Shown here piece after piece: positions 4,737-20,324 of a stretch of 37,682 nucleotides of DNA. The first letter of the stretch is position 1, and each line of letters starts with the position of its first letter. The notes below the pieces were generated by a model, which worked only from the letters and a program-made list of their open reading frames with translations, was not told the origin of the DNA and made no database searches. A program made the translations under genes and the position numbers. Source of the DNA: an uncultured Lachnospiraceae bacterium. Lineage in GTDB: Bacteria > Bacillota > Clostridia > Lachnospirales > Lachnospiraceae. The stretch covers positions 1-37,682 of the forward strand of contig CAMSTM010000012.1 of NCBI GenBank assembly GCA_947063675.1, given 5' to 3'.

Positions 4737-7700
4737 ATGGAAAGCGAACGTCAAAGAAGGAAAAAAACAACCATATTCAGGATGTTCCTGATTCCTTTAA
4801 TCGCCATTATGCTGATACAGAGCATGATTACCATCGGCACTTTGGTGGTAAGGAGAATCGCCGGTACTTTGCAGGAATATTCGGGCAGCATGATGAGCCG
4901 GTTAGTGGAAAACAGGAAAGTTATCCTGCAAAATGATATGAATCAGCGCTGGGCATCCATTTATGAGCAGGAACCGGCTATAACAGAGGCACTGCAGCAG
5001 TTTCTGGACGGGGAAGGCATGGAGCTTTCAGAATTTCTGGCTTCAGGAGAACAAAAAAACAGGTTTATGGAACAGATTTTTCCGGAATGCCTTGCAGTCC
5101 TCCAAAACAGCTACACAACAGGGCTTTTCTTCATGTTCACCGGAGAAGAGCCGGAGGCGGCGTGTGAGTACGACGGTTTTTTTGTCCGGGATTCCGACCC
5201 GGCTAAAAGTCCTGCCAACTATTCGGATTTACTTTTGGAGCGCGGAAGCAAGAATCTTTCGAGGCAGTGGAGCATTCCCTTTGACACCAACTGGACGACC
5301 AGATTCCATATGGCGGGGGAAGGGAAGGATGACAGCGAGTATTCTTTCTATGAACCGTGGAGAGCGGGAAGAGAATACGCGGATGCAGCGACAAAGGATT
5401 TGGGCTACTGGTCGCTTCCTTTTTCGCTGGAAAAAGGGACAGCAGGCTCTTATGAAATGATTACATACTCTCTGCCGCTCCGGTATGAAGGCACTGTTTA
5501 TGGAGTGCTTGGAGTGGAGATTTCTTCAAAGGTTTTACGCAGCTATCTGCCGGCCAAGGAGCTGAACGCCGCAAGCCAGTCGGGGTATATGCTGGCTGTG
5601 AAGGAGGAGGACGGCAGCTACAGGCCGTTGCTTGGAGAGGGACTCCTCTCAAATACGGTGCATTCCGCCAAAGATACGTTTTTCCTTAAGGAAACGGGAT
5701 ACAGCAGTCTGTCGGAAGTGGTTTCGGTGAAGCAAAACGGAGAGGGGATTTATGCCGTCGTCTGTCCGCTCAAGCTTTACAGTAATAACGTGCCCTATGA
5801 AGATACGGAGTGGGTGCTTTTAGGGCTCGATACGGAAGAAGATTTGTTTGGAATGAGCCGCCGGCTTTACCTGTGGGTGGTTGTGGCGGTCTTTTTCGGC
5901 CTGGGATTTGGCGTGCTTGGGATTTACTTTCTGGTACGGTATCTGACAAAGCCGGTGGGGCGGCTGATGGAATGTATCAGCAGAGGAAGCGCAGGACTTT
6001 CGGACTTTAAGCTTTCCAATATCTTTGAAATAGACGCTCTGTATGATGTGGTCAGGGATTTGACGAACAGGCAGAAGGAAGCGGAAAATACTTTATTGGA
6101 AGAAAAAGAGCGGTACCGGGTCGCCCTGGAGTCATCCAACGATATCTTTTTTTCCTATGATTTGGATAGCCATGTGCTGGATATTGTGAACCATAAAACG
6201 ATGAGCGGCCAGTGGCAGTGCGGGGAATATGGGGACAGCTTTCTTAACCCGGAGTGTATTTGTGAGACAGAGCGCGGGGAAGTTATGACAGCTTTGCGGG
6301 GGCAGGATGATAAGCTGTCTGTGGAGTTTCGTCTGGAATGGCCCGAGAATACGGATTTCAGGTGGGTTGCCCTCACAGGAAACGCGGTATACGATACAGA
6401 TGGCAAAAAGCGGAAGCTGATAGGAAGCATCCGGAATATTCAGGAACAGAAAGAAAGAGAAGCCAGACAGCTCCGGGAAAACGAAATTGACAGCGTTACC
6501 GGGCTTTATGTCTTTAGCGCCGGAATGAAACATGTAAGGGAACGGCGGGGGACTTTGCCGGAAGGCATTATAGTAAATCTGTACTTTGCCGGGATAAAAG
6601 AGTCCGGCCAAAAATGCGGGATTGTCTTTTCGGATATGATACTGGAGGAAATTGGATGCCTGATAAAAAGCTGCTGTGAAAAATCACGGGGCGGGACGCT
6701 CTTACAACCCCTGGCATTCCGTCTGAATACGGATGAATTTGTCCTGTGGCTGGGCGGCTATACGAAGGAGGAAGCTGGGCGCCTGGTAAGGGAATTGTCT
6801 GCAAATATCGCGGTATGCTTTGATTCCGAACTCTTTTGCGTGGATACCTATGCGGGTTTTGCCTGCGCGGAAGCAGGATTGGACACAGAGGAGCTTATCC
6901 GAAGGGCCAGGCTGGCGCGCCGGATTGCGTTTTCCGGCGATAAAGGGACAGACAATTTTTACCGGGATATTCCGGCGGATAAGAGGAAAGAACTGCCCGC
7001 TCTGAACGGGAAGGATATCCGTTCAGCAGGCTACGGAGAGGATATCGGGCTGGTATCCGTGGCTTTAAACCTGTTTGGCAAGGGAGGCGGATTCGCTGCC
7101 CAGATGATGCTTATGTGCCGTAAGATTGGCAGGTTTTACCAGGCGGAAGGCGTACTGATATCTTTGCTGCGGCCGGATTTTAATTCAAATTATCTGAGCT
7201 GCCAGTGGCACAGGGACGGAAGCGTTTCCGGAGAAACTGTCAGGAAATACAAGGAAGAAGAAAAAGAGGAGTTTTACCGGTGGCTGGGGAAGAAGGAGGT
7301 CCGTTATGTTTCGGAAAAAGACAGCGGTGGAGACACCATCCGGCGTTTTCTGGCCATAGACGAAGGGGATTTTGGCGTCGTCCTGCCTATGTATGACAGC
7401 GGGAGCTATATGGGAAATATCTGTATCCTGGGCATTTTGCCGGAATTTCTGGAAGATGCGGAGAACTACCAGGAGCTTGCAGAGCTTGGCAGAGTAGCGG
7501 AAAGCCAGATAAACCAGCAGCAGTCCGATATTGCAAGCAAGGCAAAATCCGAGTTTTTATCCCGAATGAGCCACGAGATACGTACACCGATGAACGGCAT
7601 TATCGGTATGACGGCAATTGCACTGCAGCAGAACCAGAGCAAAGAGCGGGCAATAGACTGTCTGCAAAAAATACAGTCCTCCTCGGAATATCTGTTGGGA

Positions 7701-8663
7701 CTGATTAACGATATTCTGGATATGTCCAAAATTGAAAGCGGCAAGATGAAGCTGGAGCCGTGCAATTTTAATATCTATGAAATGCTGGATACCATAGGGG
7801 AGCTGATTGTGCCCCAGGCGGAGGCAAAGCGGATTGACCTTGTAAAGGATATCAGGATGAACCATAAATGGTTTATGGCGGACCGGATGCGGATAAGCCA
7901 GGTGCTGATTAATCTGCTCGGCAATGCGGTGAAATTTACGCCTGCCGGAGGAAAGGTCGTCTTTTCGGTAGAAGAGCTTGAGAGCGATGAGGAACAGGCG
8001 CAGGTTTCTTTTGCAGTATCAGATACAGGCATCGGGATTGCGCCTGAGGACCAGGAAAGAGTGTTCCGCTCCTTTGAGCAGGCATCCTCGAATCCGTCAA
8101 AGCAGCAGGGGACAGGACTTGGGCTTTCCATCAGCAGCCGTCTGGTTCAGCTTATGGGAAGCAATATCCAGATTGAAAGCACCCCGGGGGAGGGCAGTAC
8201 GTTCCGATTTGCAATTCCCATTAATCTCGGAGAAGATATGGAAACGGAAGTTTCACAGGAGGAGGTTTCCTTTGAGGGCCGCCGTGTGCTTGTGGTGGAG
8301 GATAATGAACTGAATTCGGAAATTGCCCAGTGCCTTCTTGAAGAACGCGGCTTTGAAGTAGACTGTGTATTTAACGGAGCCGAGGCGGTAGAGCGGGTGA
8401 AGAACATGCCGCCGGGGACATATGATGTGATTCTGATGGATATTATGATGCCGGTGATGGACGGACTTTCGGCGACGCGGGCAATTCGGGGCATGGAGCG
8501 GGAGGACTGCCATACCATCCCGATTGTGGCAATGTCGGCGAACGCCTTTGACGACGATTTGAAGAAGTCGGTGGAGTGCGGGATGAACGGGCATTTATCC
8601 AAACCGGTGGATGTGGAGAAGCTGTATCAGACGCTGGGAGAGATTATTTTTAAAAACTCGTGA
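4737..8663 (+). CDS. Hybrid sensor histidine kinase (Cache, PAS, degenerate GGDEF, GAF, HisKA, HATPase, REC)
   Basis: A 1308-residue membrane sensor kinase with its own receiver domain. Visible order: membrane helix at about 13-36; a large extracellular Cache-like domain to about 375; a second helix at about 378-402 (LWVVVAVFFGLGFGVLGIYF); a short HAMP-like KPVGRL linker; PAS at about 460-575; a GGDEF-like domain from DSVTGLY (about 585), whose signature is degenerate (RLNTDEF, 662-668); a GAF-like region at about 770-925; HisKA with SHEIRTP, phospho-His H946; HATPase with NAVKFTP, DTGIGI and GTGLGL; and a receiver with VVEDNE, phospho-Asp D1235 in ILMDIMMP and a C-terminal KPVD. It lies 2 bases after the solute-binding lipoprotein gene and shares its promoter. 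No DNA-binding output is attached, so a separate regulator or Hpt protein should lie elsewhere. Domain limits are approximate. Confidence 0.93.
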   Translation: MESERQRRKKTTIFRMFLIPLIAIMLIQSMITIGTLVVRRIAGTLQEYSGSMMSRLVENRKVILQNDMNQRWASIYEQEPAITEALQQFLDGEGMELSEFLASGEQKNRFMEQIFPECLAVLQNSYTTGLFFMFTGEEPEAACEYDGFFVRDSDPAKSPANYSDLLLERGSKNLSRQWSIPFDTNWTTRFHMAGEGKDDSEYSFYEPWRAGREYADAATKDLGYWSLPFSLEKGTAGSYEMITYSLPLRYEGTVYGVLGVEISSKVLRSYLPAKELNAASQSGYMLAVKEEDGSYRPLLGEGLLSNTVHSAKDTFFLKETGYSSLSEVVSVKQNGEGIYAVVCPLKLYSNNVPYEDTEWVLLGLDTEEDLFGMSRRLYLWVVVAVFFGLGFGVLGIYFLVRYLTKPVGRLMECISRGSAGLSDFKLSNIFEIDALYDVVRDLTNRQKEAENTLLEEKERYRVALESSNDIFFSYDLDSHVLDIVNHKTMSGQWQCGEYGDSFLNPECICETERGEVMTALRGQDDKLSVEFRLEWPENTDFRWVALTGNAVYDTDGKKRKLIGSIRNIQEQKEREARQLRENEIDSVTGLYVFSAGMKHVRERRGTLPEGIIVNLYFAGIKESGQKCGIVFSDMILEEIGCLIKSCCEKSRGGTLLQPLAFRLNTDEFVLWLGGYTKEEAGRLVRELSANIAVCFDSELFCVDTYAGFACAEAGLDTEELIRRARLARRIAFSGDKGTDNFYRDIPADKRKELPALNGKDIRSAGYGEDIGLVSVALNLFGKGGGFAAQMMLMCRKIGRFYQAEGVLISLLRPDFNSNYLSCQWHRDGSVSGETVRKYKEEEKEEFYRWLGKKEVRYVSEKDSGGDTIRRFLAIDEGDFGVVLPMYDSGSYMGNICILGILPEFLEDAENYQELAELGRVAESQINQQQSDIASKAKSEFLSRMSHEIRTPMNGIIGMTAIALQQNQSKERAIDCLQKIQSSSEYLLGLINDILDMSKIESGKMKLEPCNFNIYEMLDTIGELIVPQAEAKRIDLVKDIRMNHKWFMADRMRISQVLINLLGNAVKFTPAGGKVVFSVEELESDEEQAQVSFAVSDTGIGIAPEDQERVFRSFEQASSNPSKQQGTGLGLSISSRLVQLMGSNIQIESTPGEGSTFRFAIPINLGEDMETEVSQEEVSFEGRRVLVVEDNELNSEIAQCLLEERGFEVDCVFNGAEAVERVKNMPPGTYDVILMDIMMPVMDGLSATRAIRGMEREDCHTIPIVAMSANAFDDDLKKSVECGMNGHLSKPVDVEKLYQTLGEIIFKNS

Positions 8664-9173: not shown

Positions 9174-9433
9174 GCATTTTACAGGAAATGACACCAAAAT
9201 TATTTCAGGAACGGGGGAATATTTCATGTCTGGCGGGAATAATAAAAATGAACATGGATATCGTTGAAAATGACAAATAATAATTAGTATGAGCAAAGAC
9301 AAACAGTATAAAGTGTAATAAAATAAGACCAGAAACAACAAAAAAATGTCTATTATGTCGATAAAAGTCGGTATTTTACTGAAAATGATTCGATAGAAGT
9401 AGACAAAACAAAAAGAAAGACAGGAGGTTTTTT
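9174..9433 (+). promoter_or_regulatory. Upstream region of the carbohydrate operon
   Basis: The remaining 260 bases of this 310-base gap are AT-rich and hold no gene. A weak promoter candidate is TTGAAA (9264-9269) with TATGAG 18 bases on (9288-9293). Closer to the gene, three short direct repeats GTCTAT, GTCGAT and GTCGGT start at 9348, 9357 and 9367, about one helical turn apart. They could be activator half-sites for the AraC-type regulator encoded downstream, but this is a guess. I see no clear cre site. The gene itself has a strong AGGAGG at 9422-9427. Confidence 0.35.
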
Positions 9434-10855
9434 ATGAGAAAGAAATACTTGGCTTATCTTTTGGCGGCAGCTATGACGTTGTCTTTGGCAGGATGCGGCG
9501 GTGCGTCAAAGGAAAACGATTCAAAGACACAGGAAGAAAATACGACGGAACAAAACGACGGTTCCGGTGACAGCCAGGAAGCGGGAGACAATTCCGGTCC
9601 GGCAGACGAGGGCGCGGAAGCATCGGGAAGCGATACGGGATTGTCAGGTTCCTTCTCCATTTACCACATGCATGGCGAGGATGACACGACAGGAACTGCG
9701 GCGGCTTTCTGGAAAGCGGCTAACAAATTCATGGAAGAAAATCCAAATGTAAATATTGAATTTGTTTTTTCGGCGCATGACGGCTATCAGCAAAAGCTCA
9801 CTGCGATGATGGCAGGGGACGAGCTTACGGATGTCTGGCTGACAAAAGGCGATATGCTTCCTTCCTTTGCGGATACCGGAACCATTCAGGCGGCTGACCA
9901 GTATATTAAGCAGGATTCGGAATGGGCGAACGCGTATCTGGACGGCGCGTTTGGAGACTGTACCTATAATGGAACCGAGTGGGGGATACCCATGCAGATG
10001 CAGGCCAATACAATCGGTATTTACAACAAGGCGATTTTTGAGGAATGCGGAATTGACAAATGGCCGGAAACATGGACGGAGCTTTTAGAGGACTGTGAAA
10101 AAATCAAGGCAAAAGGCTATATACCGATTGCAATGGGAAATAAGGAACAGTGGGTTGCGGAGTCAACGGTTTTCAACACCTATGCTTATAAGTACGTTGA
10201 CCAGGAATGGTTCAACAGCCTTGCAAACAATCAGGGGGCAAAGTTTACGGACGAGGCTTTTGTCAGAGCGCTGGCAGGATTCCAGAACATTGCACAGTAC
10301 TTTAATGAGGACATGAACTCTCTCGACCAGAACGAAATGTATGCTCTTTACTATAATAAACAGGCAGCCATGTTTTTCAACGGAGCCTGGGGCGTGGGCA
10401 ATATGATTGGCAACTGTCCTGAAGATGTGCTTGCGGATACCCATGTGGGTCTGATGCCGGCAGTGGAAGGAGAAGCGGGAACCAAGTACGATACGGCGGC
10501 AGGGGCAGGTTGGAATTATGTGATTCACAGCAGATTGCAGGGAGATGACTTAACTGCGTGTCTTGCCTTCCTGAAAGCGGTATCTACCGGGGACTACGCG
10601 AACAGCGCGCTGGAGCTTGGGTTTATTTCTTCGGGAAAAACGACGGACGTGGACCTTTCCGCACTGCATCCGCTTTTTGCAGAGTATTACGAGCTGGCGG
10701 CAACGATGAATAACTGCTCCATTTTCGACGTCGTTCTTCCGGCGGAGGTTGGTTCGGGCGTTCTCTACGCAGATACACAGCAGCTCATTGCCGGGACGAT
10801 GACCCCGGAGGAAATGGCGGCTGATTGTCAGGCAGTTATGGAAGCAAACTATTAA
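9434..10855 (+). CDS. Sugar ABC transporter substrate-binding lipoprotein
   Basis: A 473-residue family 1 solute-binding protein. It has a lipoprotein signal with lipobox LAGC (Cys at residue 21), then a long Ser/Asn/Glu/Asp-rich linker (about 22-70) tethering the binding domain to the membrane. The mature fold starts at GSFSIYHMHG and includes the conserved VWLTKGDM, AMGNKEQWV and FNGAWG segments of the oligosaccharide-binding group. It is the first gene of a sugar locus, followed by two matching permeases after an attenuator-like hairpin. No ATPase gene is present, as is common in Firmicutes where one MsmK-type ATPase serves many importers. Sugar specificity unknown. Confidence 0.94.
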   Translation: MRKKYLAYLLAAAMTLSLAGCGGASKENDSKTQEENTTEQNDGSGDSQEAGDNSGPADEGAEASGSDTGLSGSFSIYHMHGEDDTTGTAAAFWKAANKFMEENPNVNIEFVFSAHDGYQQKLTAMMAGDELTDVWLTKGDMLPSFADTGTIQAADQYIKQDSEWANAYLDGAFGDCTYNGTEWGIPMQMQANTIGIYNKAIFEECGIDKWPETWTELLEDCEKIKAKGYIPIAMGNKEQWVAESTVFNTYAYKYVDQEWFNSLANNQGAKFTDEAFVRALAGFQNIAQYFNEDMNSLDQNEMYALYYNKQAAMFFNGAWGVGNMIGNCPEDVLADTHVGLMPAVEGEAGTKYDTAAGAGWNYVIHSRLQGDDLTACLAFLKAVSTGDYANSALELGFISSGKTTDVDLSALHPLFAEYYELAATMNNCSIFDVVLPAEVGSGVLYADTQQLIAGTMTPEEMAADCQAVMEANY

Positions 10856-10880
10856 TCTCGGAAAATATCAGGTTGTTAAG

Positions 10881-10936
10881 CCGGTGAGCCATTGCGAATC
10901 TGCTGAAAAACAGTAGGGGCAATGGCTCCGGTTTTT
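10881..10936 (+). terminator. Read-through terminator between binding protein and permeases
   Basis: Stem CCGGTGAGCCATTGC (10881-10895) with GCAATGGCTCCGG (10919-10931): 10 perfect pairs plus CCG/CGG across a 2-base bulge, then TTTTT. A hairpin here is usually a partial terminator that makes the binding protein more abundant than the permeases. Confidence 0.75.
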
Positions 10937-10957
10937 ACAGACGGCAGGAGGGATTGA

Positions 10958-11854
10958 ATGAATATTCGGGAAATTCGGAATAAGAAACAGAAGATTGGAA
11001 TTTATCTGCTTATTATGGTTCCATTTATCTATTTTGTATATATCATGGTTTATCCTCTGTTTACTTCCGTTTATTACAGTCTGACGAAGTGGAAAGGAAT
11101 CGGGGAGGCGCAGTTTGTAGGGCTTGGCAATTATGCCACGCTGCTTAAAACAGGGGATTTCTGGCTGGTAACAAAAAACACATTGTTTTTGAGTCTGGTA
11201 TGCACGATTGGCCAGGTGGGAATTGCATTAGTGATTGCGTTTCTTATGACAATCCGCAGGCTGCGGCTGAAAGCCTTTCACCGGGCGGTCATCTTTTTCC
11301 CGGTGGTAATGGCCCCTATCGTTGTGGGATATGTCTGGCGTTTTATTTATAATTCAAATTACGGATTGCTGAATGCTTTTTTACGGGCAGTGGGGCGGGA
11401 AGACTGGATTCGGTTCTGGCTGGATGACCAGAATATTGTTCTTCGCGTGGTGTCGATTCCGGTTATCTGGCAGTATATCGGTCTGTATATGGTGATTCTT
11501 ATGAGCGCGATTTCGGCTATTCCACAGGAGGTTTTTGAATGCGCGGAGATTGACGGGGCGACGGGCCTTAAAAAGTCGATTTACATTACGCTTCCCATGG
11601 TGTGGGATACCTTAAAAATCTGTATTATTCTGTGTGCGGGCGGGACAATGAAAATATACGACCACCTTGTTGCGCTGACAAACGGAGGGCCGGGAAGGGC
11701 CACGGAATCGCTGGCGATGTACTGCTATGAGAACACTTTTAAGTTTGGCAATTTTGGGATGGGGGCGACAATTGCCGTTTCTATTCTGGTGTTCGCGCTG
11801 TTAATCAGCGGATTTGTGCAGGTTATGATGGGAAGGAGGAACAGGGATGAATAA
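10958..11854 (+). CDS. Sugar ABC transporter permease (MalF/UgpA type)
   Basis: A 298-residue inner-membrane permease with about six helices, beginning YLLIMVPFIYFVYIMVYPLF. It has the usual WKGIGEAQFVGLGNY opening and the EAA coupling loop near residue 200 (ECAEIDGATGLKKSIYITLP), which docks on the ATPase. A strong AGGAGGG precedes ATG 10958. It overlaps the next permease by 8 bases (ATG at 11847, stop ending 11854), typical of a co-translated pair. With the upstream lipoprotein it makes an importer for a mono- or oligosaccharide. Confidence 0.95.
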   Translation: MNIREIRNKKQKIGIYLLIMVPFIYFVYIMVYPLFTSVYYSLTKWKGIGEAQFVGLGNYATLLKTGDFWLVTKNTLFLSLVCTIGQVGIALVIAFLMTIRRLRLKAFHRAVIFFPVVMAPIVVGYVWRFIYNSNYGLLNAFLRAVGREDWIRFWLDDQNIVLRVVSIPVIWQYIGLYMVILMSAISAIPQEVFECAEIDGATGLKKSIYITLPMVWDTLKICIILCAGGTMKIYDHLVALTNGGPGRATESLAMYCYENTFKFGNFGMGATIAVSILVFALLISGFVQVMMGRRNRDE

Positions 11855-12680
11855 GATAAAAAAATTTGTAACCGGCTTTTTTGTAAATGTTCCGATTATG
11901 CTGCTGTCCCTGACCTGTATTTTCCCGGTAATCTGGCTTTTGTATTCTTCGGTGAAAACAGACGTTGAGTTTAACAGAAGCCCGGTCAGCCTTCCGGCGC
12001 AAATCCATCTGGATAACTATGTGGCGGCGTTTAAGAAAGCGAGCTTTGGGACATTTACATTTAACAGCGCTTTTAACAGCGTGGTTTCATTATTGCTGGT
12101 GCTTCTCATTTCATTTGTCATGGGATATCTTTTGTCAAGATACCGGTTTAAAGGAAGAAATTTAATATACGGGGCATTGATGGCAGCAATGATGATTCCG
12201 GTTTATGCGCTGCTTGTCCCGATATTTATCCAGGAAAAGCAGATGGGGCTTTTGAACACGCATTTTTCTCTGATACCGGTTTATGTGGCGCTTGAGCTGC
12301 CTACGTCCGTGTTTTTGATAGACGGTTATATACGGGGGATTTCCGTTGATATGGAGGACGCGGCTTCCATTGACGGGGCAAGTCTTCCCAGAATCATGTT
12401 TACAATTATTATGCCGATTTGCAAGCCGATTTTGTCTACCATTGTGATTCTGACTTTTATGCATGTATGGAACGAGTTTGCATTTGCGCAGGTACTGATT
12501 TCAAAGGAGAGCCTTAAGACAATTCCAATTGGACTTACTTATTTTACCACACAGTATTCTACCAGCTATACGCTCCTTTTGGCGGCCCTGGCAATGGCTA
12601 CGATACCGGTGCTGGTTATTTATCTTTTCTTTTATAACAAAATTATGGAAGGAATGATGGCGGGAGCGATAAAAGGTTAG
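11847..12680 (+). CDS. Sugar ABC transporter permease (MalG/UgpE type)
   Basis: A 277-residue permease, partner of the preceding gene. It opens with a membrane helix ending in the characteristic CIFPVIWLLYSSVKT. The EAA loop is DMEDAASIDGASLPRIMFTIIMP, and the C-terminus is MEGMMAGAIKG, a standard ending of this family. It has its own GGAAGGAGGA ribosome site inside the upstream gene. The AraC-type regulator starts 20 bases later, so transport and regulation lie in one transcription unit. Confidence 0.95.
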   Translation: MNKIKKFVTGFFVNVPIMLLSLTCIFPVIWLLYSSVKTDVEFNRSPVSLPAQIHLDNYVAAFKKASFGTFTFNSAFNSVVSLLLVLLISFVMGYLLSRYRFKGRNLIYGALMAAMMIPVYALLVPIFIQEKQMGLLNTHFSLIPVYVALELPTSVFLIDGYIRGISVDMEDAASIDGASLPRIMFTIIMPICKPILSTIVILTFMHVWNEFAFAQVLISKESLKTIPIGLTYFTTQYSTSYTLLLAALAMATIPVLVIYLFFYNKIMEGMMAGAIKG

Positions 12681-12700
12681 TTTGCAGGAGAGCATACAGC

Positions 12701-13609
12701 ATGATTGACATATCCCGACTTTCTCAGATAAATCCTTATATCAGGATGATGAAACTGCAAAAAGAAGCGTCTTATTCAGGAAAATGGGAAGATATTGATA
12801 ATGTGTTCACGTATATTGCTGTGGGAAACGCCGATTTTGTTGTAAACGGAATCAGCTACCGTCTTCACGCGGGCAGCATCATTATCATACCTCCCTATAT
12901 GACGCATGTAATTATATCAAACAGCGCGGAGCCTTTTGTCCAGTATATCATGCACTTTGATTTTTATGAATCAGAGGAGAGAAAAGAACTGGCGCATAAA
13001 AATATGCTGGAAGAAGAACAGCCGGTGATTCCTGAAAGAGAATGTGTTCTGGACGACAGCGTAATTGTTTCCGAGATACCGGAGGCGGAACGCAATCAGG
13101 TGGTTCTGCGCTATTTGAACCTGATTCAGGAATTCAATGAGAACAAGCCGGGAAGAAACCTGATTCTGAAAGCCGGATGTACAGAACTGCTGGTAAACGC
13201 CTTAAGAAACTGTGTGGAGGTTAAGGAAAAGAGCAGCAGGAAAAAAACAAAATCATGGATTCATATTGAAAATGCAATGGAATATATTATGAACTGTGAT
13301 TTGGCCGGAGATTTGACCAACGAGGGAGTGGCTAAAGGAATCGGAGTGTCGGCAAATTATCTTACCAGTATCTTCCAGATGTACCTGGGAATTTCTCTGC
13401 ACAAGTATATAATGAATGTAAGGATTGAGCATGCCCAGCAGTTACTTTTATCCGGTAAGGTAAATGTGACGGAAGCGGCTGACATGACGGGTTTTTCCAG
13501 CATTCATGTATTCAGCAAGACTTTTAAAAATATTATGGGCATTTCGCCCAGTCAATTTATGAATGAAACTGTAACCAGAAAAAAGGAGGTAAAATTTTAT
13601 GTGGATTGA
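12701..13609 (+). CDS. AraC-family transcriptional regulator
   Basis: A 302-residue regulator with an N-terminal cupin-like ligand domain (about 20-110; FVVNGISYRLHAGSIIIIPP is the typical beta-roll) and a C-terminal pair of helix-turn-helix motifs (about 195-295; GVSANYLTSIFQ and AADMTGFSSIHVFSKTFK, ending GISPSQF). Located inside the sugar locus, it most likely senses the sugar and activates the locus. A ribosome site (GCAGGAGAG) lies before ATG 12701. Its stop overlaps the next gene by 11 bases. The effector cannot be deduced. Confidence 0.94.
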   Translation: MIDISRLSQINPYIRMMKLQKEASYSGKWEDIDNVFTYIAVGNADFVVNGISYRLHAGSIIIIPPYMTHVIISNSAEPFVQYIMHFDFYESEERKELAHKNMLEEEQPVIPERECVLDDSVIVSEIPEAERNQVVLRYLNLIQEFNENKPGRNLILKAGCTELLVNALRNCVEVKEKSSRKKTKSWIHIENAMEYIMNCDLAGDLTNEGVAKGIGVSANYLTSIFQMYLGISLHKYIMNVRIEHAQQLLLSGKVNVTEAADMTGFSSIHVFSKTFKNIMGISPSQFMNETVTRKKEVKFYVD

Positions 13610-15644
13610 GGGAAATTACAGACGCAATCTGATGGACATGCACATTGACGACTGGAACCCGGAGTTTTTGAGCCGTCTTAATGTGGATGAATATGTGGAG
13701 GCGTTAAAGGATGCCGGTATCCAGGCAGCCATGGTAAAAGGCAGGCCCCACACAGGACTGGCTTATTATCCGACCAGAGTAGGAAGGATGCACAAAGGAC
13801 TGAAAGGCTTTGATTTTCTTGGAACAATGGTTCAGAAATGTCACGAAAACGGGATTGCGGTGGTGGCGTACTTTACCCAGATTTTTGACAACTGGGCGTA
13901 TGAAAATCACCCCGAATGGCGGCTTGTCACTTCGGACGGAATGGGAATGAGGGAGCTTCACGAGAAGAAAGACATGAAGACAGGGCGGTACGGAATCGTG
14001 TGCCCCAACAACGAAGGATATCGGGCGTATGTGAAAGCCTGCCTGACGGAAATGAATGAGCTGTACGATTTTGAGGGAATGTTCCTGGATATGACGTTTT
14101 TCCCGGAGGTTTGTTATTGTCCGAGCTGTCGGAAAAGGTATAAGGATGAAACCGGAAAAGAACTGCCGAGAAAGATAGACTGGAAAGACCCGGACTGGCT
14201 GGAATATGCCTATAAGAGGGACGAATGGATAGCGGATTATGCGAAATTCGCCACAGACTGCGTAAAGAAAATCAAGCCCCATGTAACCATTGAACATCAG
14301 CTTTCCAATATTGCGGGTTCCTGGATTGTGGCTGATTCGGAATTGCTTCTGGACGCCATTGACTGCGCCAGCGGCGATTATTACGGCGGCTTTCTGCAGC
14401 AGACGTTTATCAACAAGTATTATAAAAATATTTCTCCGAATCTTCCCTTTGTGTACCATACCTCCCGGTGCGACCCGGAGCTGGCCTATCATACCACGAC
14501 GAAAACAGAGGAAGAGATGCTTTTGCATGTAATCACCTCTCTCGTACATAACGGAGCGTTCCTTTTAGTGGACGCCATCAACCCCGACGGAAGCATAGTG
14601 CCCGAGGTTTACCATGGCCTGATGAAACGTGTCTATGGAGTTACAAGACAATACGAAAAATACGTTGGCGGGGAAACATACCGGGACGCGGCGGTGTGGT
14701 TTGCCACCCATGCCAAATTTGACCCGAATGAAACGGATATAGACGTGATGGAGAAGACTTTTTCGCCCGCTTATTATATGAAATCGCCGGTAGCGGCATC
14801 TTCCGTTCTCCGCGAATATAACGTGCCCTTTGAAGTCATAGGGACAAAGAATATAAAGGACGAGAAAGCAAAGGTAATGATTTTGTCTCATGTTGCCAAC
14901 ATACGTGACGAAGAGATGGATGAGATAGAAGCGTATCTGGCAAAGGGCGGTAACCTGCTTGTAAGCGGCCCTGTGGGAAACGAAAGACTGCAGAAGCTTA
15001 TTGGCATTAAAATTACGGGGCGCACGGAACATGATTTTACCTATATGAGCCCTACAGAGGCGGGAGCGGACTTCTTCGAGGGATTTTCCCGTCTGGCGCC
15101 CCTTACCATCGACGGCCACCAGATGGAGGCGGAAATCACGGACGAAAGTAATCTTACCGTGCTCGCCACGAAAACCCTGCCCTATACCATGACGGGATGC
15201 TGTGAGTTTTCGGCTATTCATTCCAATCCGCCCGGCATTTATACAGAGGCTCCCTGCGCCGTGCTAAAGGAAACGGGAGAGGGCAAAATTATCTGGACGG
15301 CCGCCCCTGTTGAAATGTCAAGGCCCTATATGAGCCGTAAGGTATTTTTCCGTATGGTCGATTTTTTGCGGGGAGAAGCCTCCTTTACCTCCAACGCGCC
15401 GAAGTTCGTGGAGGTTCTTGCATGGAAAAAGGATGGGGAAGATTATTTTGCGGTCATTAACCAGCAGGAGGAATCTCCCATTGCGCCTATGTATGATATT
15501 ATAATCGAAGTAAAGGGAAAGGCGGACAAAAAGGCTTATCTCCTGCCGGAAAATACGGAGCTTAAGACGGAAATTACGGGAGAGGATTCGTTGAAGATTT
15601 ATCTGCCGAAGCTGGAGATTTTCCACATACTTCGTTTAGGCTGA
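13599..15644 (+). CDS. Putative glycoside hydrolase, GHL6-like TIM barrel with trimerisation-type domain
   Basis: A 681-residue protein resembling hypothetical glycosyl hydrolase family GHL6 (Pfam PF14871, from memory). The N-terminal barrel (about 1-350) has MDMHIDDW, AYFTQIFDNWAYE and YDFEGMFLDM, with D164 in a position typical of a catalytic or substrate-binding Asp after a barrel strand. A CYCPSC motif follows. Residues about 370-470 (KVMILSHVANIRDEEMDEIEAYL, GGNLLVSG) resemble the beta-galactosidase trimerisation domain, and the C-terminus looks like a small beta domain. There is no signal peptide, so it should act in the cytoplasm on imported saccharide. It overlaps araC by 11 bases with AAGGAGG as ribosome site. 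Substrate and mechanism are not established; activity as a glycosidase is inferred from fold and context. Confidence 0.82.
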   Translation: MWIEGNYRRNLMDMHIDDWNPEFLSRLNVDEYVEALKDAGIQAAMVKGRPHTGLAYYPTRVGRMHKGLKGFDFLGTMVQKCHENGIAVVAYFTQIFDNWAYENHPEWRLVTSDGMGMRELHEKKDMKTGRYGIVCPNNEGYRAYVKACLTEMNELYDFEGMFLDMTFFPEVCYCPSCRKRYKDETGKELPRKIDWKDPDWLEYAYKRDEWIADYAKFATDCVKKIKPHVTIEHQLSNIAGSWIVADSELLLDAIDCASGDYYGGFLQQTFINKYYKNISPNLPFVYHTSRCDPELAYHTTTKTEEEMLLHVITSLVHNGAFLLVDAINPDGSIVPEVYHGLMKRVYGVTRQYEKYVGGETYRDAAVWFATHAKFDPNETDIDVMEKTFSPAYYMKSPVAASSVLREYNVPFEVIGTKNIKDEKAKVMILSHVANIRDEEMDEIEAYLAKGGNLLVSGPVGNERLQKLIGIKITGRTEHDFTYMSPTEAGADFFEGFSRLAPLTIDGHQMEAEITDESNLTVLATKTLPYTMTGCCEFSAIHSNPPGIYTEAPCAVLKETGEGKIIWTAAPVEMSRPYMSRKVFFRMVDFLRGEASFTSNAPKFVEVLAWKKDGEDYFAVINQQEESPIAPMYDIIIEVKGKADKKAYLLPENTELKTEITGEDSLKIYLPKLEIFHILRLG

Positions 15645-15661
15645 AAGGAGAGGGCGCTGTT

Positions 15662-16561
15662 ATGAAATACGGAATTTATTTTGCTTATTGGGAAAAAGAG
15701 TGGAATGCGGACCAGAAACGGTATATTGAGAAGGTGAAGGAGCTGGGGTTTGACGTTCTGGAAATTTCCTGCGCCATGCTGAAAAATACCGGTAAAGAAG
15801 AATTGCTGGAAATGAGAAAAAGAGCGGCAGATGCCGGAATTACGCTTACCGCCGGATACGGCCCGGCGGCGGGGGAAAATCTCGGAAGCCCCGATTCGGA
15901 AGTGGTAAAAAACGCAGTGGCTTTTTATACGGACATATTAAAAAAACTGGAAATTCTTGATATTCACACCCTGGGAGGCGGAATTTATTCCTACTGGCCG
16001 GTGGACTACAGTAAGCCTGTTGACAAAGCGGGAGACTGGGCGCGGAGCGTTTTAAATGTGCGGAAAGTAGGGAAGATTGCCAAAGAATGCGGCGTGGACT
16101 ACTGCCTGGAGGTCTTAAACCGGTTTGAGGGCTATCTGCTCAATACCTGTGCGGAGTGTAAAAGTTTTGTGGAGGAGGTGGATGTGGACGCAGTAAAGAT
16201 TATGCTGGATACTTTTCATATGAACATTGAGGAGGACAGTATGCCGGAGGCGATTTTGCTGGCAGGAGATAAGCTGGGACATTTCCATGTGGGAGAAAAT
16301 AACCGACGCCTGCCGGGGAAAGGCGGCCTGCCCTGGTATGAAATCGGCATGGCGCTTCGGGCCGTGGGTTATAACAAAAACGTAGTGATGGAGCCTTTTG
16401 TGAGAAGCGGAGGAGGCGTGGGCAGCGATATTAAAATATGGCGGGATTTAAGCAGGGGAGCATCGGACGCCCGGCTTGACGCGGATGCAAAAAATTCGGT
16501 GGCGTATCTGCGTTATGTTTTCAGCGGGCCTGATTCCGATTACGGAAGCGTTATTTTGTAA
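15662..16561 (+). CDS. D-psicose/D-tagatose 3-epimerase family protein
   Basis: A 299-residue TIM-barrel ketose 3-epimerase. The opening KYGIYFAYWEKEWNAD, GGGIYSYWPVDYSKP and VMEPFVRSGGGVG are hallmark segments of D-psicose (allulose) 3-epimerases. The four metal-binding and catalytic residues known from the Clostridium cellulolyticum enzyme fall at identical numbers: E150 (CLEVLNRFE), D183 (LDTFHMNIEED), H209 (FHVGENNR) and E244 (MEPF). The family swaps configuration at C3 of free ketoses (fructose/psicose, tagatose/sorbose, ribulose/xylulose) using Mn or Co, in the cytoplasm. It lies between a glycosidase and an aldose isomerase, so it should act on the ketose made by that isomerase. The natural substrate is open. 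Confidence 0.93.
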   Translation: MKYGIYFAYWEKEWNADQKRYIEKVKELGFDVLEISCAMLKNTGKEELLEMRKRAADAGITLTAGYGPAAGENLGSPDSEVVKNAVAFYTDILKKLEILDIHTLGGGIYSYWPVDYSKPVDKAGDWARSVLNVRKVGKIAKECGVDYCLEVLNRFEGYLLNTCAECKSFVEEVDVDAVKIMLDTFHMNIEEDSMPEAILLAGDKLGHFHVGENNRRLPGKGGLPWYEIGMALRAVGYNKNVVMEPFVRSGGGVGSDIKIWRDLSRGASDARLDADAKNSVAYLRYVFSGPDSDYGSVIL

Positions 16562-16590
16562 GTGATGTAAATGAAAGGAAAGAGCTAAAG

Positions 16591-18360
16591 ATGAAAAATT
16601 ATCCGGTAATAGGAATACGTCCTGTTGTGGATTCCAGACGTCTTGGCATTCGGGATGCATTAGAGGGCAAGGTAAGACAGATGGCGGAAGCGGCCGGTAC
16701 GCTGATTCGGGAAAATGTATTTTATGCAGACGGTACGCCGGCCCGCACAGTGATTTTTTCCGGCAGCATTGCCGGCGGGGAAGAGGCGGCAAGGTGTGAA
16801 GCGGAATTTGCGTCTCAGCACGTGACCGCCACCTTAAGCGTGACGCCAAGCTGGTGCTATCCGCTTGAGACAATTGACATGAACCCCATGACGACAAAAG
16901 CAATATGGGGATTTAACGGAACGGAGCGTCCGGGAGCCGTGTACCTTGCGGCGGCGATGGCGGCTCATAACCAGATGCACAGGCCCTGTTTTTCCATTTA
17001 CGGAAAGGATGTGCAGGATATGGACGAAGAGGAAATTCCAGCCGATGTGCAGGAGAAAATTCTGCGGTTCGCAAGATGTGCCATTGCGGTAGGCGAAATG
17101 CAGAACAAAGCGTATGTGGGATTCGGCTCTGTTTCCATGGGGATTATGGGTTCTTTCTTAGACCCTTCTTTCTACATAAGATATCTGGGAATGCGGCCTG
17201 AATGGGTAGATATGACAGAGATTCTCCGGCGAATGGAGCAGGGGATTTATGACGGGGAAGAATTTGAAGCAGCTCTTTTGTGGGTGAAAGAAAACTGTAA
17301 GGAGGGCTTTGACCCGAATCCGGACACAAAAGCTCACGGACGGGAAGAAAAGGATAAGGAATGGGAATTTGTGGTGAAGCTCACCATGATTATCAGGGAC
17401 ATAATGCTGGGAAGCGAAAAACTGGCGGAGCTTGGTTTTGCCGAGGAAGCCTTAGGGCGCAACGGCCTGTTCGGCGGCTTTCAGGGACAGCGCATGTGGA
17501 CGGATTATAAACCGAACGGGGATTTTACGGAAGCGATTTTGAACTCATCCTTTGACTGGAACGGAAAACGCCAGCCGATAGTATTTGCCACGGAAAACGA
17601 TAATCTGAACGGGCTTTCCATGCTGTTTGGCAATCTGTTGACGGGAAAGGCCAGCGGTTTTTCCGATATCCGATGCTATTGGAGTCCCGACGCGGTAAAA
17701 AGAGTGAGCGGATGGCAGCCAAAGGGAAAGGCGGCAGGCGGATTCATCCATCTGATTAATTCCGGTTCCACCTGTCTGGACGCCACGGGGAAATCGGCGG
17801 ATAAGGAGGGGATGGGGGTTATGAAACCATGGTGGGAGATGACTCCAAAAGACATAAATGCCTGCCTTGAAGCTGCTGTTTTTTGCCCGGCGGAGCTGTG
17901 CCAGTTCAGAGGCGGAGGTTTTTCCTCCCATTTTGTGACGGAAGCGGAAATGCCCCTCACATTAGTAAGGGTAAATCTGATAAACGGTGCAGAACCGGTA
18001 ATGCAAATTGCGGAGGGCTGGAGCGTAGTGCTTCCGGAGGAGGTACATCGTATCATTGACAGCAGGACTGACCCCACGTGGCCTACTACGTGGTTCGTGC
18101 CAAGGACGGGAGAAAAGAAGGCTTTCCGGGACGTTTACAGTGTGATGGCAAACTGGGGGGCAAATCATGGCGCGTTTATCCATGGCCATGTAGGAGCGGA
18201 TTTGATTACCCTGGCTTCCATGCTGCGGATACCGGTGACCATGCATAATGTGGCGGAGGAACAGATATTCCGCCCTCATGTATGGCTGTCTTACGGGACG
18301 CAGGAGTCCGAGGCGGCGGATTTGGCGGCTTGCAGGGCATTCGGGCCTTTATACAGATAA
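16591..18360 (+). CDS. fucI: L-fucose/D-arabinose isomerase family protein (FucI-like)
   Basis: A 589-residue FucI-type isomerase, close to the 591 residues of the Escherichia coli enzyme. The N-terminus KNYPVIGIRPVVDSRRLGIR, TPSWCYPLETIDMNP and IWGFNGTERPGAV are family hallmarks. The metal and catalytic residues are present: E335 (FATEND), D359 (GFSDIR) and H526 (NWGANHGA), each two below E. coli numbering. The family converts aldoses with the C2-C4 arrangement of L-fucose (L-fucose, D-arabinose, and by known side activity L-galactose and D-altrose) to ketoses. No fuculokinase or fuculose-phosphate aldolase is nearby, which argues against a standard fucose pathway. The gene symbol describes the family, not a proven substrate. 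Ribosome site GAAAGGAAAGAG lies before ATG 16591. Confidence 0.93.
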   Translation: MKNYPVIGIRPVVDSRRLGIRDALEGKVRQMAEAAGTLIRENVFYADGTPARTVIFSGSIAGGEEAARCEAEFASQHVTATLSVTPSWCYPLETIDMNPMTTKAIWGFNGTERPGAVYLAAAMAAHNQMHRPCFSIYGKDVQDMDEEEIPADVQEKILRFARCAIAVGEMQNKAYVGFGSVSMGIMGSFLDPSFYIRYLGMRPEWVDMTEILRRMEQGIYDGEEFEAALLWVKENCKEGFDPNPDTKAHGREEKDKEWEFVVKLTMIIRDIMLGSEKLAELGFAEEALGRNGLFGGFQGQRMWTDYKPNGDFTEAILNSSFDWNGKRQPIVFATENDNLNGLSMLFGNLLTGKASGFSDIRCYWSPDAVKRVSGWQPKGKAAGGFIHLINSGSTCLDATGKSADKEGMGVMKPWWEMTPKDINACLEAAVFCPAELCQFRGGGFSSHFVTEAEMPLTLVRVNLINGAEPVMQIAEGWSVVLPEEVHRIIDSRTDPTWPTTWFVPRTGEKKAFRDVYSVMANWGANHGAFIHGHVGADLITLASMLRIPVTMHNVAEEQIFRPHVWLSYGTQESEAADLAACRAFGPLYR

Positions 18361-18379
18361 TGACAGTGGCAGAATCGTC

Positions 18380-18408
18380 TTTCATCCGGCCGGTATTCAT
18401 GTTATAAT
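18380..18408 (+). promoter_or_regulatory. Extended -10 promoter for the beta-glucuronidase
   Basis: TGTTATAAT at 18400-18408 contains a perfect TATAAT with the TG extension one base upstream; the -35 (TTTCAT, 18380-18385) is poor, as extended -10 promoters allow. It lies 20 bases after the isomerase stop and predicts a start near 18415, with a 110-base leader before the beta-glucuronidase. Confidence 0.5.
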
Positions 18409-18437
18409 GAATTGCATCAAAACACAGGCGGAATGTG

Positions 18438-18468
18438 GGGAATGGGCCCGTCTCTGGCGGGCTTTCCC
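18438..18468 (+). other. Leader hairpin before the beta-glucuronidase
   Basis: GGGAA-TGG-GCCCG (18438-18450), a 7-base loop, then CGGGC-T-TTCCC (18458-18468): two 5-pair stems separated by a small internal loop. There is no T-run, so it is not a standard terminator. It sits in the predicted leader and may affect mRNA stability or ease of translation. Confidence 0.4.
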
Positions 18469-18524
18469 TGCAGGTAATGATAGCGAAAAATAACAGCGGA
18501 GTATGAAAGAAAAGGAGGACGATT

Positions 18525-20324
18525 ATGCTATATCCCAAAGTGAATCAGGCGCGTTCCGTTATTGACTTGTCAGGCGTGTGGGGATTCCGGCTGGGCACGG
18601 ACGAAGAGCCGGGAGAGCACATTGAAAAGCTGGAGAAACCGGAAGTCATTGCGGTTCCCGCGTCCTACAACGACCAGAAGGACGACCCGGCTTACCGGCA
18701 CCATTACGGCTGGGCCTGTTATCAGAGAGAAATCGTGGTGCCCGCGTACATGAAAGACGAGAGGAGAGTGCTGCGTTTTGACGCCGTCACCCACAATGCG
18801 AAGATTTATCTGAATCAGCGGCTTGTTATGACCCACAAAGGCGGCTTCCTGCCCTTTGAAATCGACATTACGGATTTGATACCGGCGGGGGAAAAGGCGC
18901 TTCTCAGCGTTGCGGTGGATAACCGGGTAAATCACGGCACGCTGCCGGTGGGAAATGAGGATGTGGCCTTTTTCGGCTCGGACAATCCGGGGATTCCCAG
19001 TGTGGAGAGCGCCAAGCAGGCGAGAAAAAAACAGAATTTCCCGAACTTCGATTTCTTCAACTTTTCGGGAATCCATCGTCCTGTCCGCATATATACGACG
19101 CCGGCGTCTTACATTGAAGACATTGTGCTGGTTCCGGACATTTCCGGGACAGACGGAATCGTCAGCTATGAGGTGCGTACCGGCGGGGTGCATTCGGATA
19201 AGGAGGTTGCCGTAAAAATTCTGGATGAAGATGGAAATTGCGTGGCGTCGGCAGCAGGCAGAGAGGGAACCGTAACGATTCCCGATGCCAGACTGTGGTG
19301 GCCCTTTCCGGGTACGCCCTATCTGTACAAAGCGGAGGTTACCTACGGCGGGGATATCTATGAGGAAAGCTTTGGCATCCGCACGGTGAAGGTGGAGGGA
19401 AGCTCTTTTCTGATTAACGGAGAGCCTTTTTACTTCAAAGGCTTTGGAAAGCACGAGGATTCGCCTTTCCACGGGAGAGGACTGGATGTGTGTCTGGACG
19501 TGAAGGACGTCAACCTGATACACTGGCTGAACGCCAATTCTTTCCGCACCAGCCATTATCCTTATGCGGAGGAAATGTACGCACTCTGCGACAGGGAAGG
19601 GATTGTTATCATCGACGAAACCCCGGCTGTTGGCATCAACGGCGGGGGAGCCCATGACCCTTATCAGACTTACGGCGTGAAAGAACATCACGAGGAGGTT
19701 ATCAGGGATTTGGTGGCAAGGGATAAAAATCACCCCTGCGTGGTAATGTGGTCCATGGGAAACGAGCCGGACACGGAGCATTTTCCACAGTCGGCCTATG
19801 ACTACTGGCATTCCCTGTATGAGCTTACCCACAGCGTTGACCCGCAGAAAAGACCCGTTACCTTTGTGTGCTGTCAGAATCATTATGAAAATGACATTGT
19901 CACCCGAACCATGGACGTGGTGTGTCTGAACCGGTACTATGGGTGGTACAATCTTTCGGGGGACTTGGAGGCGGCCTCCTATGCCCTTAACATGGAGCTG
20001 GATTTCTGGGAAAAAATCGGCAAGCCGGTGATGATGACGGAATACGGCGCCGACGCGATTCCGGGCGTTCACAACTGCGTGCCGGAAATGTTCAGCGAAG
20101 AATACCAGATGGATTATTACAAAATGCACAGCGACGCCTTTGATAAGAGAGGATTTTTTATCGGGGAGCAGGTTTGGAATTTTGCGGATTTCGCTACCAT
20201 TCAGGGATGCATGAGAGCGGACGGCAACAAAAAGGGCCTGCTTACCAGAGACAGACGGCCCAAGCTGGCGGCTCACTATTTCAGAAAACGGTGGGGTGAG
20301 ATTTCGAATTTTGGGTATAAATAG
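18525..20324 (+). CDS. uidA: Beta-glucuronidase, GH2
   Basis: A 599-residue GH2 enzyme matching the length of E. coli beta-glucuronidase (603). Domains: a sugar-binding jelly roll (about 1-180), an immunoglobulin-like sandwich (about 180-275) and a TIM barrel (about 275-599). Catalytic acid/base is E414 (SMGNEPD) and nucleophile E506 (MMTEYGAD). The uronate-recognising N-x-K motif is N568-K569-K570 (DGNKKG), which distinguishes glucuronidases from galactosidases. The segment between VGINGGG and the next helix is shorter than the E. coli active-site loop, suggesting a no-loop or mini-loop gut enzyme that accepts larger glucuronides; that is an inference. No signal peptide, so cytoplasmic. It has its own promoter and an AAAGGAGG ribosome site, and ends the carbohydrate locus. 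Confidence 0.93.
   Translation: MLYPKVNQARSVIDLSGVWGFRLGTDEEPGEHIEKLEKPEVIAVPASYNDQKDDPAYRHHYGWACYQREIVVPAYMKDERRVLRFDAVTHNAKIYLNQRLVMTHKGGFLPFEIDITDLIPAGEKALLSVAVDNRVNHGTLPVGNEDVAFFGSDNPGIPSVESAKQARKKQNFPNFDFFNFSGIHRPVRIYTTPASYIEDIVLVPDISGTDGIVSYEVRTGGVHSDKEVAVKILDEDGNCVASAAGREGTVTIPDARLWWPFPGTPYLYKAEVTYGGDIYEESFGIRTVKVEGSSFLINGEPFYFKGFGKHEDSPFHGRGLDVCLDVKDVNLIHWLNANSFRTSHYPYAEEMYALCDREGIVIIDETPAVGINGGGAHDPYQTYGVKEHHEEVIRDLVARDKNHPCVVMWSMGNEPDTEHFPQSAYDYWHSLYELTHSVDPQKRPVTFVCCQNHYENDIVTRTMDVVCLNRYYGWYNLSGDLEAASYALNMELDFWEKIGKPVMMTEYGADAIPGVHNCVPEMFSEEYQMDYYKMHSDAFDKRGFFIGEQVWNFADFATIQGCMRADGNKKGLLTRDRRPKLAAHYFRKRWGEISNFGYK

Follow-up and report, generated by a model that had tools for sequence, protein, structure and literature searches.

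A contig from an uncultured Lachnospiraceae bacterium (CAMSTM010000012.1, assembly GCA_947063675.1) carries an operon, at positions 9434–18360, for a CUT1-type importer, an AraC-family regulator, a GH151-like glycosidase, a D-psicose 3-epimerase (DPE) and an aldose isomerase of the FucI family, without a kinase or an aldolase. The DPE and FucI genes co-occur within the genus beyond chance, and the isomerase of this pair has an altered substrate pocket. The window, meaning the whole stretch of 37,682 nucleotides that was analyzed, is an entire contig (C12) of a draft genome of 3.74 Mb in 272 contigs that is 95% complete. A sequence-only reading of the window had proposed a two-step isomerase and epimerase module lacking its own kinase and aldolase, and the conserved pair and the altered pocket support that proposal. 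We give close to an even chance to the reading in which a D-altro hexose is freed, isomerized to D-psicose and epimerized to D-fructose.

In the proposed mechanism, the AraC-regulated operon would import a small glycoside, from which the GH151-like hydrolase would free a sugar with an L-fucose-like configuration at C2–C4. The specialized FucI-family isomerase would convert this aldose to a ketose, and the DPE would convert that ketose to a common one. The sugar would most likely be D-altrose (or 6-deoxy-D-altrose), with D-altrose passing through D-psicose to D-fructose. Final phosphorylation may be carried out by a kinase encoded elsewhere; at one related locus (L029), a fructokinase-like gene lies in a neighboring importer operon.

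Conservation of the epimerase and isomerase pair

A collection of species genomes was searched with the DPE, and the best 80 of 558 DPE loci were examined. A FucI of at least 65% identity was present within the covered stretch in 21 of these 80 loci, and the remaining 59 showed none there. The GH151-like gene accompanied the pair in 16 of the 21 linked loci, and nine of the 21 also carried the importer and the regulator (one with a partial solute-binding gene). The linked loci were found through their DPE, so this linkage rate is not a frequency; searches of the genus and of the family provide the fair counts.

The sequence-only reading had suggested looking for the pair across genomes. Within the genus, the same 13 of 37 genomes hold both a close DPE (at least 81% identity) and a window-type FucI (at least 77%; a contig end cuts one of them short). 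Neither gene reaches that level in the remaining 24, of which six have a more distant DPE (48–56%) and ten a more distant FucI (51–60%). The two genes lie less than 300 bp apart in 12 genomes and 2.7 kb apart in G412. The intervening stretch in G412 (L212:7929-10508) contains three genes, which by eye encode an SDR, a spore photoproduct lyase-like protein and a nucleosidase-like protein.

Across 397 genomes of the family, four FucIs reached at least 65% identity and all four adjoin a DPE, versus none of the 109 other FucIs. Adjacency to kinases was scored with 49 kinases selected from a larger set, which makes the kinase count a lower bound: at least 31 of the 113 family FucIs adjoin such a kinase, versus none of the four that are linked to a DPE. 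No FucI among the 113 adjoins both a DPE and one of these kinases. FucI was also found in 22 plasmid records, every one below 60% identity.

Active sites and the isomerase pocket

Membership of the isomerase in the FucI family was supported by its scores against NF008220 (937.6 bits, cut-off 775) and TIGR01089 (870.8 bits, cut-off 850), by three FucI Pfam domains, and by the metal ligands E335, D359 and H526, which were invariant in 47 of 47 aligned rows. The protein is 56–58% identical to the solved enzymes 3a9r, 4c21 and 6k1f. In a FucI tree of 51 rows (49 different), the 21 DPE-linked rows, mostly found through their DPE, fell on one side of a branch with 100/100 support, and 0 of 500 label shuffles gave a value as low.

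Six FucI residues that recognize the substrate are described in PMC6894278: Arg16, Trp88, Gln300, Tyr437, Trp496 and Asn524. These were mapped by hand through the alignment with 4c21 at an offset of 17, and the expected residue was recovered at all six positions. The equivalents in the window protein on this mapping are R16, W88, Q300, Q438, W497 and N525. The linked side of the comparison comprised the window protein and, from the 19 linked FucIs that clustered, all but the fragments L035 and L039 (17 sequences), while the other side comprised 25 family loci (from the best 30 of 113 FucI matches), the genome's own paralogue and three PDB chains. L123–L126 were kept apart, with L022 and L034 identical in sequence to L123 and L124, respectively.

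Five of the six recognition residues were invariant in the 47 rows, and the pocket departs from the canonical one in the replacement of Tyr437 by Gln438. Residue 438 was Gln in 17 of the 18 DPE-linked sequences, the exception having Glu, and Tyr in 28 of the 29 others, the exception having Asn. Residue 87, beside the recognition Trp, was Ser in all 18 linked sequences and Cys in all 29 others. Pro at residue 91 and Cys at residue 362 were each present in 15 of 18 linked sequences, where all 29 others have Gly and Thr, respectively. S87, P91 and Q438 occur in all 13 genus copies, and the canonical FucI copies L215 and L217, each of which adjoins a kinase gene, have Cys, Gly and Tyr at those positions. 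From the residues involved, the Tyr-to-Gln change would give room and polarity and may suit a substrate with a hydroxyl group at C6 better than a pentose. The window enzyme thus shares its Pfam domains and metal ligands with the known L-fucose/D-arabinose isomerases (PDB 3a9r, 4c20-22, 6k1f, 1fui) but differs from them in Gln for the recognition Tyr, in Ser for Cys, in forming its own clade, and in having an epimerase rather than a kinase as its partner.

The epimerase was assigned by its family model to the D-psicose 3-epimerases, and we compared 66 of the 80 loci, those whose DPE clustered, with the linked locus L039 counted as not linked. E150, D183, H186, H209 and R215 did not vary across the 21 FucI-linked rows or the 46 others, and E244 was present in all 21 linked and 45 of 46 other rows (one gap). 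The earlier claim that both active sites are intact (E150/D183/H209/E244 in the epimerase and E335/D359/H526 in the isomerase) was borne out by these alignments. Linked and other copies agreed at 17 of 19 inspected sites, bar single exceptions, and position 248 was variable in both alike. A group-specific change in the DPE was considered and rejected: position 18 was the sole position to pass the thresholds for a difference, and position 66 was Tyr in all 21 linked copies and Tyr, His or Phe in 24, 21 and 1 of the 46 others. Thus, the DPE is little changed between linked and other copies, whereas the FucI is clearly changed. Clostridia-type D-psicose (D-allulose) 3-epimerases (PDB 7x7w, 3vni-3vnm) share the family model and the catalytic residues with the window DPE, which differs in lying in an operon with an isomerase and in having Tyr66 where 7x7w and 3vnk have His.

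Candidate substrates and possible fate of the ketose

The conserved glycosidase bears on which sugar is freed. A profile of 15 homologues aligned residues 6–679 end to end with residues 31–685 of the GH151 alpha-L-fucosidase ALfuk2 (PDB 6tvk), and a hand reading of the alignment placed the GH151 nucleophile Asp at the invariant D164 (GH151 residues from PMC10154630). Full-length similarity and the nucleophile Asp support membership in GH151, whose enzymes cleave alpha-L-fucosides (PMC10154630). The sequence-only reading had placed an importer and a glycosidase in the operon; this stood for the importer and for the conserved GH151-like protein and failed for the beta-glucuronidase encoded downstream. 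No relative of the latter above 23% identity was found in the 80 best DPE loci (two matches of 22–23%), where 16 of the 21 FucI-linked loci cover at least 1.9 kb behind FucI, and it was rejected as a member of the unit (0/80 loci). Beta-D-altrosides and beta-D-arabinopyranosides share their absolute configuration at C1–C4 with alpha-L-fucosides. Given this shared configuration, the hydrolase and the isomerase would point to one set of sugars, namely L-fucose, L-galactose, D-arabinose, D-altrose and 6-deoxy-D-altrose.

In 3 of the 21 linked loci, a gene of a family of 381–404 residues, here called c32, replaces the GH151-like gene before the DPE and FucI genes (L029:8796-9968, L049:8618-9763 and L051:5567-6781). 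The c32 proteins had no Pfam match up to an E of 5 and no convincing relative in the PDB. A model of the fold was mostly helical and of low confidence (pLDDT 57, pTM 0.66), and it was not interpreted. The family is possibly a glycosidase of a new type. A GH38 alpha-mannosidase gene follows c32 in L051, and L049 has a GH29-like gene past FucI on the opposite strand.

The absence of a fuculokinase and a fuculose-phosphate aldolase from the operon, as first proposed, held: FGGY and PfkB gave no match on the contig, no ROK kinase was present among the scanned window genes (15–29500), and Aldolase_II was found in the genome just on C95 and C56. The kinase and aldolase of an L-fucose catabolic operon are therefore lacking at this locus. 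Elsewhere in the genome, a second, canonical FucI (1055 bits) is encoded on C179, next to an importer of the ribose type and what by eye is a truncated regulator resembling AraC. A mutarotase resembling FucU (128 bits, cut-off 141) is encoded on C206, close to a kinase of the rhamnulokinase family, and C56 carries genes of the microcompartment, glycyl-radical and class II aldolase types. The C56 aldolase fell under every curated cut-off, with L-fuculose-phosphate aldolase models among its better matches. These genes on C179, C206 and C56 are candidates for L-fucose use in this organism. A microcompartment gene set of this kind serves fucose and rhamnose in Clostridium phytofermentans (PMC3557285); that pathway also uses FucI but runs via a mutarotase, a kinase and an aldolase, all absent from the window operon. 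A fuculokinase and aldolase of the same regulon elsewhere in the genome, with induction by L-fucose, had been named as evidence that would speak against the two-step module. This holds in part: candidate L-fucose genes are present, but they are accompanied by their own canonical FucI and therefore do not need the FucI of the window.

Kinases near the pair itself were sought in 25 DPE-FucI loci, including two repeats (L213 = L023 and L216 = L035), using a single profile for FGGY together with four probes for PfkB/ROK, a set that is not exhaustive. The matches were an FGGY fragment situated 2.8 kb ahead of the importer gene at the edge of L046, three ROK regulators and, in L029, one more ROK protein. 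The gene for this L029 protein follows that of importer permease B after 47 bp, and their operon diverges from c32, DPE and FucI. The best family of the protein by far was ScrK fructokinase (271 bits, not reaching the cut-off of 400), and it matched the putative fructokinase 1xc3 with an E of 1.8e-101. On the question of whether kinases ever join the pair, this is a single locus, with its fructokinase-like gene in an importer operon neighboring DPE and FucI; it fits better with D-fructose as the end product than with D-xylulose or L-sorbose. In other settings kinases do join a DPE: in G085, G296, G323 and G384, a rhamnulokinase-like gene lies 18–101 bp from a DPE of 42–57% identity, a kinase partnership of another kind.

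The simplest reading of the pair is a FucI adapted to feed the DPE its usual substrate, D-psicose, whose FucI-type aldose partner is D-altrose. Works cited by PMC6894278 report FucI acting on D-altrose and L-galactose, as well as the production of D-altrose from D-psicose, and polymers of 6-deoxy-beta-D-altrose occur in O-antigens of Dickeya and Lelliottia (PMC6336734). Several points weigh against a D-altrose route. The activities of the window enzymes are predicted from sequence. Free D-altrose is, to our knowledge, scarce in nature. The ketose specificity of the DPE is uncertain because all linked copies have Tyr66 and not the His of 7x7w and 3vnk. The GH151-like protein is distant from ALfuk2 (E 4e-28), and by hand mapping its column for the acid/base Glu is not Glu, with the invariant D255 and D260 close by and the register uncertain. 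Characterized FucIs prefer L-fucose/L-fuculose and D-arabinose/D-ribulose, and the Raoultella enzyme reached just 0.0–10.8 U/mg on substrates other than L-fuculose and D-ribulose (PMC6894278). No fructokinase was recognized among six of the seven PfkB proteins of the genome (a 1-phosphofructokinase, a ribokinase-like protein, three KDG-kinase-like proteins and a pyridoxamine kinase; the C209 protein was outside the scan and ROK was not searched), and just 1 of the 25 linked loci, repeats included, has a fructokinase-like gene. The fuller proposal of a natural D-altro catabolic pathway, with a D-altrose isomerase clade marked by the Tyr-to-Gln change, a GH151-like beta-D-altrosidase and the DPE as the bridge to D-fructose, is put forward as tentative and somewhat doubtful.

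The strongest rival to D-altrose is D-arabinose. A D-arabinoside would be cleaved, FucI would give D-ribulose, the DPE would give D-xylulose, and a xylulokinase would pass it to the pentose phosphate pathway. FucI enzymes act well on D-arabinose and D-ribulose (PMC6894278), the solved FucI closest to the window protein was deposited as a D-arabinose isomerase, and the genome encodes a xylulokinase on C20 (TIGR01312, 589 bits, cut-off 380) and a second protein just above the cut-off on C136. However, canonical FucIs already perform this conversion, so the altered pocket would stay unexplained; moreover, Gln in place of Tyr would suit a C6 hydroxyl better than a pentose, and the L029 kinase is fructokinase-like. 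We regard this route as unlikely. The C20 xylulokinase gene lies near a gene for a protein that has a FucI C-terminal domain and a distant resemblance to sulfoquinovose isomerase (L104:3578-7567). An aldose of the same configuration other than those named (6-substituted, a heptose or an amino sugar), or an accessory function, for instance the removal of rare sugars, is quite unlikely: the altered pocket could take other substrates, but no enzyme for further processing was recognized among the scanned operon genes.

L-Galactose would be freed from alpha-L-galactosides by the GH151-like enzyme together with, in the strain of the window, the beta-glucuronidase, and would pass through L-tagatose to L-sorbose. 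An example is the alpha-L-Gal-(1-2)-beta-D-GlcA terminus, which is part of the structure of rhamnogalacturonan II. This sugar is L-fucose with a C6 hydroxyl and could fit the Tyr-to-Gln change, its isomerization by FucI is among the reported activities noted above, and the beta-glucuronidase gene follows the isomerase gene. L-Sorbose, however, is not a common end product, no further sorbose enzyme was recognized among the scanned operon genes, the beta-glucuronidase is not conserved with the unit, and the L029 kinase again resembles a fructokinase; this route is very unlikely. Ordinary L-fucose use, with a duplicate L-fucose isomerase and the epimerase as a bystander, would agree with the isomerase passing both L-fucose isomerase models and with its GH151-like neighbor. 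We consider it highly improbable given the canonical FucI and monosaccharide importer elsewhere in the genome, the pocket residue changed across the clade, the strict pairing with the DPE, and the contrast in kinase neighbors between the DPE-linked FucIs and those of the family at large. Overall, the evidence on the aldose leans toward D-altrose and D-fructose, and the presence of a xylulokinase keeps the D-arabinose branch alive.

Locus layout, regulation and significance

Eight genes on the forward strand span positions 9434–20324 (Table 1), with the open reading frames located where the sequence-only reading had put them. The gaps are 17 bp between the glycosidase and epimerase genes, 29 bp between the epimerase and isomerase genes, and 164 bp between the isomerase and beta-glucuronidase genes. 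No clear terminator was found in the last of these gaps, where a hairpin had a z of −2.25, and scans for promoters and terminators gave results at chance level. A sensor-kinase gene (4737–8663) precedes the operon; on its 3' side lie a DUF4179 gene and an ECF sigma factor gene on the opposite strand, followed by pyrE and purine genes.

Table 1. Features of the operon and its upstream region, with the evidence for each assignment.
Feature	Position	Strand	Evidence
Distal operator half-site candidate	9266..9277	+	pattern GAARNNGACAAA
Proximal operator half-site candidate	9396..9407	+	pattern GAARNNGACAAA
Solute-binding lipoprotein, CUT1-type importer	9434..10855	+	PF01547 112.6 bits
Importer permease A	10958..11854	+	UgpA/GlcT-like; best NCBIfam E 4e-24, under cut-off
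Importer permease B	11847..12680	+	PF00528 52.6 bits
AraC-family regulator	12701..13609	+	HTH_18 and AraC_binding matches
GH151-like glycosidase, 681 aa, conserved glycosidase of the unit	13599..15644	+	Pfam GHL6 81.5 bits; profile match to 6tvk
D-psicose 3-epimerase (DPE)	15662..16561	+	NF051856 468 bits (cut-off 300); best PDB 7x7w E 3e-118; catalytic residues intact
FucI-family aldose isomerase, altered pocket (S87, P91, C362, Q438)	16591..18360	+	family models, alignment, clade 100/100
GH2 beta-glucuronidase, downstream, probably outside the conserved unit	18525..20324	+	NF007538 709.8 bits (cut-off 544); best PDB 6u7i

Two half-sites of the pattern GAARNNGACAAA lie 130 bp apart upstream of the importer gene. 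The pattern matched twice in the window vs. 0.30 expected, and 2 of 100 shuffles reached two matches. A pair with a spacing of 130–132 bp also precedes the importer in L021, L022, L028, L035, L037 and L216, which include one repeat, as L035 and L216 are one contig. The exact pair was absent in L025, L034, L046 and L214, with one site in L025 and L214 and none in L034 and L046. In the 59 unlinked DPE loci, the pattern occurred 10 times in 909 kb. With its flanks, it matched three times in the genome, and the reversed control pattern matched four times, so these genome counts carry no weight. A regulon kinase was sought by the motif and rejected, the sole other genome match lying inside a ligase-like open reading frame. 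The half-sites look like a local, putative operator pair of the AraC type, which the AraC-family regulator may bind.

Other DPE genes were found in different company. Ten of the 80 best DPE loci (L062, L066, L068, L075, L076, L081, L083, L086, L087 and L090), whose titles point mostly to Kiritimatiellae or Verrucomicrobia, contain a protein of the ARMT1-like (DUF89) cluster, of which one member (L083) was scanned. A protein that by eye is MFS-like was present in 8 of the 80. In L047 (6945-8909), the DPE lies directly 3' of a gene of the nucleoside-hydrolase family.

The enzymes of the operon can all be assigned by sequence to known families. A literature search found no paper combining psicose 3-epimerase, fucose isomerase and operon, with subscription papers and preprints outside its scope. 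A search of titles and the starts of abstracts likewise turned up no catabolic operon for altrose (it did not extend to preprints or to most of the subscription literature), and no natural pathway for D-psicose 3-epimerases was found in the literature covered in this way. Izumoring cascades for the in vitro production of rare sugars use the same kinds of steps in reverse (PMC9601914; D-altrose from D-psicose in work cited by PMC6894278), but these are bench cascades and the window locus is a natural operon. D-psicose 3-epimerases are used industrially to make allulose. If the reading is true, the paired, pocket-changed isomerase would give the DPE a pathway and would mark out a likely subfamily of D-altrose isomerases, and gut Lachnospiraceae would be predicted to use a sugar that is considered rare.

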